The notes beneath the pieces are model-generated. The model was not told the DNA's origin and ran no database searches. It was given only the letters and a program-made list of their open reading frames with translations. A stretch of 64,000 nt of DNA from the NCBI RefSeq assembly GCF_000002995.4, contig NW_025062479.1, forward strand, positions 3,839,221-3,903,220, in the 5' to 3' direction. Shown here piece after piece: positions 98 to 40,186 of the stretch. The stretch is from Brugia malayi (taxonomy: Eukaryota; Nematoda; Chromadorea; Rhabditida; Onchocercidae). Each line of letters starts with the position of its first letter. Within the stretch, counting starts at the first letter, position 1. The position numbers and the translations under genes are program-made.

Positions 98-415
98 AGG
101 TACGATGAGCCCTGAGAAGGGGAACACTCGATGTCAAGCTGGTAAGGTTTTTGTGTTATTTCACTGCTATTTAAAAGTAATCTGTTGCAATGATTCTGAA
201 TTAACAAACTGGAAATTAGTAAAATGAGACCCTTCCAACAGAACCTCGTAGAACGGAGACTCGGAGTACGGCTGCAGCAGAGCTGAAAAGTAGTCCAAGT
301 GGTTGTAGAACGTACGCTTCAACTTCACCCTATAAAACCAGGTTACTTGTTGCTTTACGTTTACTACATTTCTGGAAGTTGCTTTATGCTGTGATCTGTT
401 TGTTGTTGAAATAAA
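98..415 (+). other. possible 3' end of an upstream transcript
   Basis: A short exon-like block (about 98-146) lies between a TTCAG acceptor and a GTAAGG donor. It is followed by a GC-richer stretch (about 220-380) that stays open in one frame with Thr/Arg/Ser-rich content, and by an AATAAA motif at 410-415. The two blocks cannot be joined in one reading frame with the splice sites I can see, so no prot­ein is proposed. If the AATAAA is used, a transcript ends about 90 nt before the next candidate 3' splice acceptor, the spacing typical of nematode operons. This is inference only. Confidence 0.2.
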
Positions 416-485
416 TATAGAAAGCGCTTATCCTTGCTGCCTTGTTGTACTCATTAATGCTTAGCAAGCAGTTTATCCTTCTGAA

Positions 486-498
486 ACTTTCTTTTTAG
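486..498 (+). promoter_or_regulatory. candidate trans- or cis-splice acceptor before SUZ12
   Basis: A polypyrimidine run ends in TTTTTAG at 498, 70 nt before the chosen SUZ12 start codon at 569. It could receive a spliced leader or end a 5'UTR intron. No leader sequence is visible in genomic DNA, so the choice cannot be made here. Confidence 0.3.
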
Positions 499-568
499 AA
501 GGTTTTGATAGTCTGATAACGATTCATAGCTGATATTATAAGATAATTATAAGAAAGTAGATTTAAAC

Positions 569-3500
569 ATGTTCTTTAGGCAACAGAGCAATGGAATAAC
601 GACAGAGAAGACTCGCTATACACCCGATTTTGCACCAGTACGCTCGCGGCGGGGCTCAGCAGCACTTATCATACCTCCTCTTCCAGCAGTACCATCCACT
701 GCCGCAGCAAGTAACCTGTAGTTTTATAGCAGTTGATTTTTTCATATTTGGTCTGAGTGACAAACAAAGTAATAGAATATTTCGTGAGTCTGTGAGCAGA
801 TTCCATTATTTTTATCTATTTAACTTCATTATTATCTAATATTGCTTACTTTTAATGGATTCAGGAAAAAAAGGACGTCGCGGTAGAGATGACGATAGTG
901 ATAGTGATACTGCAAGTAGTAACTCAGGACCTGTGAATGCCAAACGAACTCGCTTGTGTCATAGCAAGAATGATATTAAAAGCGTGGAAATAGTTGTTGG
1001 TAATGTTGCATCGGAAATTAAAGAAATTACGCAACAGAATAATGTGGCTAAGGTATTGTATAGAACTATTCAGATGAATCCTGATATTTATGTCCCTCCA
1101 AAATTTATGAAGACACTGTGCCATCATATGTGCCGTCATTTTAGGAAGGTTCTTATAAAAATTAAGGTCGCAAAGGTCATTTGTCTGTATGAAATCATTT
1201 GCTTTATTCGCTTCATGATAGCAGGACACTTCACATGATGCGCTGACAGAACGACAACCTCAGAAGAAAACAGATTCCGATTTGGAGCAGCACTTCAAAA
1301 GTTCGTTATCACTTGCTGCTTATTTGCGCCTTTAATGTTATCAGTGTATTTTCTTCTTTCTTTCTTCATTGCTAATGCAAAATTTACTTCTTTAAAACAT
1401 TCGAAAATTTTTTTGCAGAGGCTATTCGACTTTATCGATACATGTCACTGCCGGATACGCAAGTTGGTAGCGCTAGACCAGTATATAGGCCTTTCTTAAA
1501 AAGAAATTTGATATACATGAGACGATCTGCTGTAAGTTGAGAGATTATTTTTAATTAATTTTCGCTCTTATAATAACTACGAAAAATTTTCAGTCCATTT
1601 ATGGAAGTTATAACTTCCCCATTCTAAGTATGTGTTCATTGTATTTGTATTATTGTAGCAGTCGATAGCAGTAGGAGATGATTGCATGCCTCCCCTTTGT
1701 CCACCAGCTGCTATTGGAAAAACTGGAATGAAGGCGAAGTTACGCAAACACGAAAATCTCATGAATATACTTCATGCAATCAGGCGGAGGAATGAAATAT
1801 TAAAAAAGGTGTCGACTTTCCATGTACTATTTTCTTTCCTTTTTTTTGCTGCATACTCATTCTCAAATTTTTATATACTGTTTAAATTTTCCCCCTGATT
1901 TCTTTTCCACCTTTCGGTTTAGATGCTTGTGATGCATATATAAGTTATGTTTCAGAATCCAAAAACAAAATCATCAGGTTCAGCAGCTGTCTCATATTTG
2001 GTGCGTGTCTTAAAGCAGGATGAAGATAGCAGAAAAGGGAGTGGTAAGGATGCTTTGTCAAAGGAAACAAGAAGACATGTTAATTGCTCACATGCTACCT
2101 CAATGATCAAATTTATTGATGTTCGAAACAAAGAATTACCAGGTAATTTTTGTTGGTATTTCCATCTCTTTGTAATTATGAAATGAGCAGTAATGACAAT
2201 TATTTGTAGGTAATCGACATGCCGTTATTACGGTGTACCTTTCAAGTGAAGTCGATGGTGTCTTTAGCGAGATCGTAAGTTTTATTTTTCTCAGTGCATT
2301 TTTTTTTGTTGCATTTTATGTTGTTAATTACAATATTAGTCTGTTATGAGAAATTATCATATGCAGAAATGTGAAGTAAAGTTATCTAGATGCGACTTCC
2401 TTCTGCTACAGTACAAATGCAGATAAATACTCGTGGTGAACCTGTTGCAATAGATTTACCATTATCTATTGGTTGCCCGTTGCATTGCAGTGGAAGACAA
2501 AGGTACATTTTTTGGGTTGACTGATGAAGTAATTTGGAGTAACAAAGATATTTGGGACAAGTTTAATAGGACTGACTACATTCACTTATTCAGTATCATT
2601 TTTGAAGTATCAGTTTGTTTTGCAGGAATGATTATGTGATCATTCGTGTTACGTTTTCGGGAGAAGAATTCGCTCATATTTTAGGAGGAAAATCATTAAG
2701 AAGTGTTCCATCAAGACTGATAGACAAAGATTCGAAAACAGTCGTCCATGTAAGTGTACCGAGAAGTTGTGGAAATACTTTTATCGCAGTTTTGTGTGGC
2801 TTATTGTTACTTCAAAGGAAGTAAAATATAGTAAAATATCATAATGGATCGAGAAAGCGAATAATCGATCGAAATTTCAAACAGTGAAGGTCGCTGTGAG
2901 CCAAAATACTAGGCTTTGGTATAGTAACTGTGTAGATGAAAGAATTAAGTGTGACATAGCGAAAAATCTGACGGTTTATTGATGTTTTATTCTTTTCATT
3001 ATTTAAGGTTACCCGACGTATAAGCTGCCTTTCTTCGCCTGATAAATTAAAGAATAGTGAAGGTTCAATAACGATGTATGGTGCACGTTGCATATCTTCT
3101 GTTGCAAAAGGCGAAACGTCTGACGGTTTAATATACGGCCATGGTAGCATTACCCTGATGTTAGTCTTCATTCTTTTTTAGAAGAACCTTTGCTTTTGAT
3201 ATTGTGTTTTTTACTACTTTCACAGTTTGCATATGATTATGATAAAAACTGTGTCCAAATTTTTTCAGCCCGGATTCTTTTCTTAGTTTAGATGACAGGT
3301 GGCGTTCGGAGAAAAATTTGACGAAGAAACTTATCGATTTAGGGAAGGTAACATCTTCCGCATTTTCTTCATTTTTTACTATTGACTGATAAATCCTTTG
3401 CAAGGACCGGGGAACATATTAAATGACAGTTGTTGACATTCAGAAAATGCATATGAGCCCATTCGTACGCATGTCGATTGTGCCAGATAATAGTGGGGAA

Positions 3501-6500
3501 TCGAGTTCATCAGAAGACGATGATGAAACAAGAAGTTGTTCAAGTACGTACATAATTAAATCTTCATGGCATACTTGTGTGTGATTTTGTAAAATTGGAC
3601 TATTATCTTTTTTTTTTTTTTTTGAAGTGAAGTAGAACTATGCCTCCAGATATAAATTAATTTAGGTTTCGCCACATCTGTTTCAACAGGCTGTATAGAC
3701 CGTTGTCATCAAAACAGTGAGATGTCAGCAAAGGAATCCATACATAGCTTTGCATCAGCAGAAACCGGACTTCAAAGAGATGACAGTGTAGTCCACTTTA
3801 TTCTAATAAAGATCTCTTTTGCACTCATTCTATTTAAATTATTCAACACGAAAGTGTTGCATATTTTAAAACATTTATCTTTCAGGGTTTTGAAGAGTAT
3901 ATGAAATCACGGTTCAAGCGAGAAATGTCGCTAAAATTTCCTAAGCAAATATGGTATGCTTTATTTCATTTTTTGGTAGCTGGACTGTATGTCTATGTTA
4001 CATAAATTTGTATACTGTCTGTTTATGTTTTATAGCTATCGCTTTATTACGAGATACAATGACGAACCGAATACTAGTTTTCCGGAAAGCAAGCATCTAC
4101 TTTGTTCCGAAACTTCATCAGATTTGGTAAAAAGTGAGCTGCTGAATTCAAATGCTAACGTTGAAACTGCTGTAAATGGTGGTAGAAGTCAGTTTTTTTT
4201 TTTTTTTTTTTTTTTTTTCTTTTTTTCTTTTTTTCTTTTTGGAATTGAAGAGTATATTATTTCATTTTTAGGAAATAATATTCTGTTGTATACATGAAAC
4301 AATTTCAGGACATTGTTCTCCGTTGAAAGAAGTTTCTCCAGGAAAGGTTTTGAATGGACGATTATTTTCCAAACCTCTGACTTCACCTAAATCTTCACCA
4401 AAGTCATTTCCATCATCGCCTACTAAATATCGTTTGGATGTTCCACGTCGAGATAAACCCTTGGCTGCTATGGTTGATAGTTTAGCATCCAAATTTGAGA
4501 AATGTTCTAAAATTGTGCCGCCCAAATCTGTTGCTCCCGACGATAAAGTAACCGTTTTTAATATCTTTCAGGAATCTTTTTGTAAATTTAATTATTTAGC
4601 TTTCATATCTGATAATCCAAGCAATATGTCTGCTATTTTCAGGTTACAGTTCCCGAACTGCATTATGAAGGATATCCCGAACCGGATGGTAATGGAATCG
4701 TTACACGCTTTGTTTCTCCGGCCAACAAATGTTTTTTCTGCCTTGGAACATTTCCTGATATGTTTGCTTTGCTACTTCACATGAGAACAAGTTACCCACG
4801 ACTTGACATAGTATACAGAGTGCGTTCTTGATTTTTTTTATAACAATTTTTAAATAAGGTTATTGAACGCTATGTTGGATATTTTCTTCATTCTCTTGTC
4901 ACAATACTCATAACTATTAAAAGAAATTTGCATTTTTGATTTGGGTAATTTCATGTTTTGTTGCATCTAAGCTATATTAAATTAATTTAATATAAGTTGG
5001 ATTAATTTATATTAAATGCTTGTGTAGGGTGATGCACGGCAGACAGCTGTTATAAATAACGGTGCACCGGTTTTCATTGATGTGTTCGTTCGCAAACATT
5101 TCGACGGCTCGTATGAAGGTTCATTGGTTCGGCAGTACACAACTTCTCGTAATAGAGTTATACCACAACATTGTATTCCCAGTGATCGCCTCACTTACAT
5201 TGTTCACAAGTTAGTTTTTTCACCTTTTCAAACATTTTTTTGAATCTAGAGAGCAGTTCATCATTGTTTCAGAGTTGAAGCAAGAGCTATTCGTAAAATG
5301 CCAAAGGATCTTAGCATTTTTTTCATGCAAGCTGATCGAGAAAGACGTGCTACAAAGGGAAATAATGCGTAAGCTCGTTATTTTTAAACATTTCTTCCGG
5401 CGTAAATAAAATAAAGTGCATGTATTTCTTGCTTGAATAAAATACTTCATTTCCATAATTTTTATTAACATGGTAAGTAATTTGTAGGGCATATTTCGGT
5501 TTCCGCAGCAGGCATCCTTTAATGAAATGCACGCAAATATCAACGAAGCAGACGGATCAAGAATGGTTACGAGAATTCATTATCAGAGCAAGTATTGCAG
5601 CCTGTTTTAATGCTATTTTATGCAAAGTTTACAAAATTTTTAATGCTTGAGTATATAAACATCTCACTCGTTGTTATTTCTTTTTAGCAGATTGAAGATT
5701 TTCTCGATTTGTCACGTGTTGAGAAGGATTTTATGTCGTTGTGGAGTATTTTTCTTCTCAATCTTAATCACAAGCCACTTGGTCGTTGTCACACATATCG
5801 CACTTGCGTAAGTGTATTTCGATGCTTTTAATTACAGTTTTTTTTTTTGCACAGATCATTTTCCATAGCTTGTTATATTTATCGATGATTTGAATTTTGT
5901 ATAATTGTTTATTAAAAGTTCGGCATATTTTCCAGCGACTTTTCCTGCAAAAGCATCGGCAAGATATCTTGCAAAATAATTTTCAAAACGCTTGGGTATT
6001 TCATCTCACTGCTTTACATGAAAAAGAGGCGTTGGATACAGACGAGGTGTATGACTTGACGATGCGTTTAAAAGATAATTATGACCCCAGTACGGACGTT
6101 CGTCATGTGGTCTATGCGTAAGTGTAATCGTGATCAGATTCTGTTCGGATTTTGGAAGGTTGTTTGTAGGAATTATTTTCAGTTTTTCTGAATTGTTTTT
6201 ACTTGCTTTTTAGTACACGTGCACGATTAGAAGCAGCAGCTTCTAGTGCAAAACGAGAACCTCCAGCTTGGCAGAAAGAACCAGTACATGGGCCCAAAAT
6301 TTCAATACTAAGGAGTTCATCCGTTGCGCGTCTGTCATCTCTAGAGCCGAATTCCGATAACGAAGTTTGATTTCGCGGAGAATTTCATTATAAAAATTTC
6401 GTTACCTTATGGTTTTACTATTTTTGCCTGTTTCAGGATATGTTCAAAAAATTCATGAACGATTCTGGTCGCAAAGAGAGGCGAAGTAGTAGCTGTTCAG

Positions 6501-6743
6501 TAGATGAGCCCAGCCGAGTAAGTGATTTTGTTTACAAAATGTTTATTCATGCATCTGTTTGTCTCATCTGGTAATATTTGTCATATCTGCGCAAGAAATA
6601 CTTTTTCCCTTATCTCAGTACTGGCTTTCATTTGTTTTCTTCAGCATTCAACAAGTCGTCGTCAACGTGAACCTGATTGTTCGAAGTATCTGACAACACC
6701 TCGTGCTACGCAACCACCGAAGTGGTTATCCTTTGCCGAATAA
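569..6743 (+). CDS. SUZ12: Polycomb PRC2 subunit SUZ12-like, VEFS-box protein
   Basis: Core, non-catalytic subunit of the PRC2 histone H3K27 methyltransferase, acting in the nucleus. I join 26 exons, all phase-consistent: 569-710, 865-1148, 1225-1300, 1419-1531, 1659-1808, 1956-2142, 2210-2274, 2367-2375, 2423-2502, 2626-2749, 3008-3159, 3269-3347, 3444-3543, 3666-3787, 3886-3953, 4036-4187, 4309-4547, 4643-4819, 5028-5209, 5273-5368, 5509-5587, 5688-5807, 5936-6117, 6214-6364, 6437-6517, 6645-6743 (about 1,102 residues; human SUZ12 has 739). Diagnostic parts are a C2H2-type finger (C744, C747, H760), the following IDVFVRKHFDGSYEG block, and a VEFS box (about 882-990) with EWLREFIIRQIEDF aligning to human EWLREKTITQIEEF. 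An N-terminal IRLYRYM...LKRNLIYM region matches the human IYRFL...LHRTLTYM region. The last finger ligand is Tyr (Y765). Exon 2's donor and the 9-nt exon 8 are the least certain parts. The intron after 5587 looks GC-AG. Confidence 0.87.
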
Positions 6744-7512
6744 CTTTTCTGCTCATAAATTTCACTTTCTACAATACGGTAAACTTCGATGTAGTTATAC
6801 CATCCAGCTTCGTTATATATTGTCATTATTTACCAATTTAAGTCAGCAGTGAGACTGGGCAGAAACTTTCATAATTTTAAAAACAAATACTTTTCTAGCT
6901 AGGTGGATTTTTCGTATTTTCTTGATGTTTTCGAAATTTTGTTTTCCTTGCTTTTTTGTGTAAACAAACAGAACACAAATTTTTTTCGAACATGCCTTTA
7001 AGCGAGGTAACATCTTCCATTTATTGGCTAGAGTTTGATTGGATCCGTAATTAATTTCGTCGTTCAACTGCAAATTTGTTGTTGGAGAAGGTTTAGGCAT
7101 TCAGCAAATAGTAACGGGTCTCAGTTAGTTAAGGATATTTAGTATTATGTATTTGGCAATTAGCCTTTTTGGTTTACTTAATGACTTTTTTTTTCATTAG
7201 TGAAATGCAAAAACTAAAAGCTGTAGACAAATGAAAACATCGGAACTAATGCGCAAGACTAATTGGCTTAGTGAAACTTTTTTCAGGGTTGAATCATTTT
7301 ATGAATATGACGCACTGTTAATCATTTATGCAGGATCGCTGTCAAAAAACTGCCTTGCAATTTTTTTGCAGTCTTTCTTTGATAGGCAATGCTGATAATT
7401 TAACATTTAGTATCTGTGGTTCTTATGTAATACTTTTGCAAGCTGAAACAATAGTTGATGTCTATCCGTTTTGCTTCGATATTAACAATATTACTGTCTA
7501 CTTTTTTTTATT

Positions 7513-7620
7513 TGTTTTTATTTTGTAGTATTTGTATTTTTCGTCTTTTTATTTTGTAATATTTGTATTTCTTTGTCCTTTCATTTTGTGCTATTTGTAC
7601 TTTTTTTTTTCATTTTAGAA
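7513..7620 (+). repeat. imperfect tandem repeat, about three copies
   Basis: Three adjacent diverged copies of a T-rich unit of about 35 nt, each containing ATTTTGT followed by TATTTGTA and a C-containing T tract. It lies downstream of SUZ12 in non-coding sequence. Confidence 0.55.

Positions 7621-27992: not shown

Positions 27993-40186
<12,194 letters not shown>

Follow-up and report, generated by a model that had tools for sequence, protein, structure and literature searches.

Does a nematode outside Caenorhabditis keep SUZ12, the scaffold of Polycomb repressive complex 2 (PRC2), in its ordinary animal form? The question is raised by a gene at the beginning of a 64,000-nucleotide stretch of Brugia malayi DNA (hereafter the window), which corresponds to C139:3839221-3903220 of the genome searched here (86.8 Mb in 139 contigs). 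The legend to Figure 1A of Snel et al. (2022; PMC9253717) lists SUZ12 as absent by sequence search in C. elegans and present in B. malayi and T. spiralis, so that the headline of a first-pass annotation of this DNA, the presence of SUZ12 in this nematode, had already been published. The same annotation called the protein canonical. In our analysis the gene is very probably a SUZ12 ortholog with a VEFS-box, but 'canonical' overstates the case, since tyrosine replaces the fourth zinc ligand in all 13 nematode-type homologues in which the motif is present.

Identity of the gene

The coding part of the gene occupies positions 105-6743 of the + strand and comprises 27 exons, which join in an unbroken frame of 1125 residues once the model is corrected against relatives (Table 1). 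The first-pass claim of a VEFS-box was borne out by the Pfam profile PF09733 (score 63.4 bits, where the cut-off is 23; E = 2.6e-17, and E = 2.4e-17 on the first, 26-exon rendering of the gene) and by human SUZ12 chains, which match residues 742-970 in the numbering of that rendering (E about 2e-14). The IDV...DGSY block that had been named beside it (as IDV...DGSYEG) was also found and aligned to human SUZ12. The human acidic-basic pair E610-K611, which stimulates methyltransferase activity (PMC9253717), is kept as E927-K928, and the N-terminal part carries an FLxRxL sequence of the RBBP4-binding type that Snel et al. define as FLxRx[VL] (PMC9253717). In the putative WDB2 motif region, 10 of 38 aligned residues are identical to human.

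The corrected protein aligns over its full length to residues 68-1195 of the Brugia pahangi protein P0001 (99.0% identity); it is 99.6% identical over 275 residues to the Brugia timori fragment P0015 and 44-93% identical to the other homologues compared, beyond B. pahangi. When the whole genome was searched with P0001, 28 matches were obtained at E up to 0.01, and every one lies at the same locus, that of SUZ12. EZH2-, EED- and RBBP4-like exons are present in the genome as well and, together with SUZ12, make a complete core PRC2 likely.

Gene structure, VEFS family membership, the E/K pair, the RBBP4 epitope, the one locus found and the core-subunit-like exons form the basis on which we consider the gene, with a probability of about 95%, to be the Brugia ortholog of SUZ12 and a predicted PRC2 scaffold. 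The C-terminal VEFS-box would dock on EZH2 and EED and so support methylation of H3K27, the N-terminal epitope would bind RBBP4/LIN-53, and the complex would be predicted to assemble and to be active.

Several observations weigh against this identification. SUZ12 of B. malayi and T. spiralis was not recovered in the orthology analysis of Brown et al. (2024; PMC11075575), an outcome that the authors there ascribe to methods. Two VEFS residues relevant to assembly are changed (L652 to F, F656 to W), the evidence for EED consists of two short exons, and the genome search scored the best candidates only, so that the count of SUZ12 loci is at least one. The two structure models are poor (mean predicted local distance difference test, pLDDT, 35.8 and 38.9), and because vertebrate SUZ12 rows went into the second, its agreement with human VEFS does not count as evidence apart from the sequence. 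Finally, Tyr781 differs from human His471, and none of the six nematode proteins scanned with the zinc-finger profile PF23320 (Zn_SUZ12) matched it up to E 10, although one of them, P0014, lacks the region.

Zinc finger

The human zinc ligands C450-C453-H466-H471 align to C760-C763-H776-Y781 of the window's SUZ12, which thus departs from the C2H2 pattern C-x2-C-x12-H-x4-H of typical animal SUZ12. The fourth position was surveyed in 139 proteins, 19 from nematode queries and 120 from a human query. A protein search had yielded 13 homologues (seven filarial, Toxocara, Parascaris, Anisakis, and P0008, P0009 and P0013); 13 of the 19 nematode-query proteins hold the motif, the other six (P0014-P0019) being partial and lacking the segment, as in P0014 from the oxyurid Syphacia, which P0013 resembles by eye. 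Tyrosine stands in all 13 (10 from species-named nematodes, three without species name). The human-query proteins were the best 120 of 1207 matches, vertebrate where named and six without name; histidine was found in all 119 that hold the motif, and one (P0118) gave no motif match. Since every nematode-type motif surveyed has tyrosine, alteration of the finger is not confined to the MES-3 lineage.

The earlier statement that the zinc-finger region aligns plainly with human SUZ12 could not be confirmed: the position aligns, but the fourth ligand is tyrosine, PF23320 is unmatched, and when the PDB was searched up to E 10 with a profile built solely from the nematode segment, human SUZ12 was not among the matches. 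Its position and a profile comparison (hhalign probability 81, pairwise E 1.3e-5) both mark the region as homologous to its human counterpart. In control scans two fish SUZ12 proteins matched PF23320 at 1.1e-30 and 6.9e-30. A genome search with PF23320 up to E 10 gave nothing at the SUZ12 locus and 24 weak matches elsewhere, 18 of them below the cut-off and six that passed it only when neighbouring matches were added up. When rearranged segments from five of the 13 homologues and a human stretch were used for a profile search, 10 proteins were returned, none of them assigned by name to a nematode other than filarial, ascarid or oxyurid worms.

The finger is nevertheless the most conserved segment among the nematodes. 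When 1091 overlapping segments of 34 residues were ranked, the top ones started at residues 755-762, with up to 28 of 34 columns identical as compared with a mean of 0.256 over the whole protein. Seven of the 13 nematode-type rows were counted, the window's included, to down-weight near-identical filarial sequences; part of the exon sequence is missing from P0007, and the regions concerned, which lie elsewhere in the protein, score lower for it. Such conservation suggests that the segment has kept a role or gained a new one, rather than decayed.

The finger may be functionally intact, with Tyr781, a nearby aspartate (D785 or D791) or, in some species, a cysteine serving as the fourth ligand, in which case the protein would be canonical bar one letter; we regard this as close to an even chance, though short of it. 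The two cysteines and the first histidine are retained within this best-conserved segment, Y781, D785 and D791 are invariant in the six rows of alignment A4, and both structure models place a helix, at low confidence, at the position of the finger's helix (P0001 residues 837-850). On the other hand, tyrosine is an unusual zinc ligand, the same six rows show no invariant histidine or cysteine in the 50 columns past the retained histidine, and the models do not have the quality to decide about the finger: in the second, block mean pLDDT over it is 28-48, and fold comparisons spoke neither for nor against it.

Alternatively, the finger may be zinc-free and have been re-used for packing or partner docking after JARID2-type partners were lost, a tentative proposal with odds somewhat below even. 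The silence of PF23320 would fit, as would the outcome of the genome searches, which gave 11 JmjC and six ARID matches but both kinds together at a single place, C139:9984470-9987208. By eye, the translation of that place looks like KDM5 rather than JARID2: it contains an HTEDH stretch and a finger of the PHD type, which we take to be KDM5 features. No JARID2-like locus was seen in exon-by-exon searches, which are weak and had no positive control among 14 control genomes, and Mtf2_C had no match in a search of the same weak kind. PLU-1, a part of KDM5, was likewise missed despite the KDM5-like gene, which shows that negative family searches are weak here, those for Mtf2_C and JARID2 included; the apparent absence of JARID2 and PCL is weakened in the same way, and the strong conservation opposes simple decay. 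In human PRC2 the Zn domain and the ZnB helix form the platform for JARID2 (PMC9255955); MES-3 is without a Zn domain, and Snel et al. suggest in that connection that a lack of identified JARID2 or other accessory proteins may explain the loss (PMC9253717). We offer as a hypothesis that the finger of the window's SUZ12 was altered as a consequence of JARID2 loss.

More specifically, in Clade III nematodes a C2HY finger might have been fixed in the lineage as the most constrained part of the protein, have been turned to packing or to binding a new partner within a PRC2 that lacks JARID2, and represent an intermediate toward the loss of the finger in MES-3; this full scenario seems unlikely. In the SUZ12 ortholog that we favour, the Tyr-for-His finger would still fold, with its fourth ligand altered or absent and its accessory-subunit surface altered.

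Gene model

Exon junctions were based on the reading frame, splice signals and the proteins of relatives. The 26-exon model of the first-pass annotation was right in describing a spliced gene on the + strand that ends at 6743. Its start at 569 had to be abandoned, as this ATG is intronic (acceptor ttctttag/g at 579/580) and relatives extend into two coding exons upstream; 27 exons result. The first rendering also held a 9-nt microexon (2367-2375) and an over-long exon 2, both dismissed on comparison with relatives. Ending exon 4 at 1052 removes 32 residues of intron, and exon 10 becomes 2390-2502. The new start, MSPEKG, is identical in Litomosoides P0007 and reads MNSEKG in Toxocara P0010. Introns are GT-AG in 25 of 26 cases and GC-AG in one, after 5587.

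Six filarial database models (P0001-P0006) reach further 5′ than MSPEKG. In the whole-genome protein search, C139:3838984-3839169, just before the window, matched P0001 residues 1-64 at 85%, with one TGA inside; it is either an additional exon at the 5′ end or untranslated 5′ sequence that was annotated as coding. Together, this match and the longer filarial models make a longer 5′ end of the gene possible. A whole-genome profile search with PF09733 gave no match, perhaps because the VEFS-box is split over exons, though the protein query P0001 finds the gene. That the locus is a pseudogene, or that it joins unrelated exons into a chimera, is contradicted by the unbroken frame across 27 exons and by the identities to B. 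pahangi and the other homologues, and deserves practically no credence.

Table 1. Features of the SUZ12 gene, in positions of the window
Feature	Position	Strand	Remarks
Exons 1-9	105-141, 242-341, 580-710, 865-1052, 1225-1300, 1419-1531, 1659-1808, 1956-2142, 2210-2274	+	
Exons 10-18	2390-2502, 2626-2749, 3008-3159, 3269-3347, 3444-3543, 3666-3787, 3886-3953, 4036-4181, 4309-4547	+	
Exons 19-27	4643-4819, 5028-5209, 5273-5368, 5488-5587, 5688-5807, 5936-6117, 6214-6364, 6437-6517, 6645-6743	+	
Two 5′ coding exons, absent from the earlier model	105-141, 242-341	+	Frame, splice sites; start codon ATG at 105-107 (MSPEKG)
RBBP4-binding epitope FLKRNL (FLxRxL)	1493-1510	+	Residues 203-208; corresponds to human FLHRTL at 110
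Putative C2 domain exons, first part	1956-3159	+	
Zinc-finger exon	4643-4819	+	C760-C763-H776-Y781; alignment with human SUZ12; best-conserved segment of the nematode alignment
TAC codon for Tyr781	4793-4795	+	Stands where human SUZ12 has its fourth zinc ligand, His471
Exon with IDVFVRKHFDGSYEG block	5028-5209	+	Aligned to human IDVSINECYDGSYAG
VEFS-box	5334-6058	+	Pfam residues 871-996 (corrected model), over four exons; E927-K928 = human E610-K611
GC-AG intron within the VEFS-box coding region	5588-5687	+	Donor gcaagt; both adjoining exons continue in B. pahangi P0001

Some database entries for the homologues are irregular. P0011 (Parascaris univalens) has WD40-type repeats ahead of SUZ12, probably two adjacent genes merged by annotation and possibly an operon-like arrangement. 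P0015 is labelled 'Movement protein' in UniRef, an evident mis-annotation, and the P0010 model (Toxocara canis) duplicates two SUZ12 segments, probably through assembly or annotation.

Other features of the window

Downstream of SUZ12, at 7506-7599, a T-rich unit of 31 bases occurs three times in near-tandem order, the copies being 74-100% alike. A Pfam match was obtained for one of eight long open reading frames tried elsewhere in the window. An exon at 29774-30148 on the - strand encodes a D-2-hydroxyacid dehydrogenase-type NAD-binding domain (PF02826, E = 8.6e-23) that looks CtBP-like by eye. An Rfam scan of the window gave nothing at the gathering score. The contig, of 24,943,668 bases, is one that we take to be the B. 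malayi X-chromosome scaffold; the X would be a curious location for a gene of the PRC2 scaffold, given that silencing of the X in the C. elegans germ line depends on PRC2.

Discussion

The occurrence of SUZ12 in a nematode other than Caenorhabditis shows the MES-3 state to be derived, a point in print since 2022. The first-pass annotation had inferred that the ancestral nematode SUZ12 was normal and MES-3 derived. The second half is supported by VEFS-box SUZ12 in vertebrates, filarial and ascarid-type nematodes and by Snel et al., who use profiles and structure models to argue for MES-3 as a diverged ortholog of SUZ12 that has lost the Zn domain (PMC9253717); 'normal' overstates the first half, given the tyrosine ligand. 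MES-3 is thus best read as a derived state, the statement for the whole phylum resting on Snel et al. (2022; PMC9253717). The His-to-Tyr change, of which a limited literature search turned up no published account, is a modest but usable addition to what is known. The change suggests that nematodes still possessing SUZ12 already had an altered JARID2-docking face on PRC2, and with it the sequence of steps that led to MES-3 becomes open to testing across nematode clades.

Among known systems, the closest are the filarial proteins of B. pahangi (VEFS-Box protein P0001), Loa loa (LOAG_17336, P0003) and Onchocerca volvulus (P0004), which represent the same gene at 89.7-99.0% identity and share an identical zinc-finger string with tyrosine. 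The filarial database models differ from the window's SUZ12 in the extra residues before MSPEKG and, in some cases, in alternative exons. Human SUZ12 (PDB 6c23_A, 5wai_B, 5hyn_C) resembles the worm protein in the VEFS-box (33 of 118 aligned residues identical), in E610/K611, in FLxRxL and in the DGSY block; it differs in having His471 where the worm has Tyr781 and in its length (739 as against 1125 residues), and the worm finger goes unrecognised by PF23320. C. elegans MES-3 presumably occupies the same position in PRC2, and the FLxRx[VL] epitope is found in both proteins. In the account of Snel et al. (PMC9253717), however, MES-3 is without the Zn domain, the E610/K611 pair and obvious sequence similarity to SUZ12, whereas the SUZ12 of the window keeps both the E/K pair and a recognisable VEFS-box.
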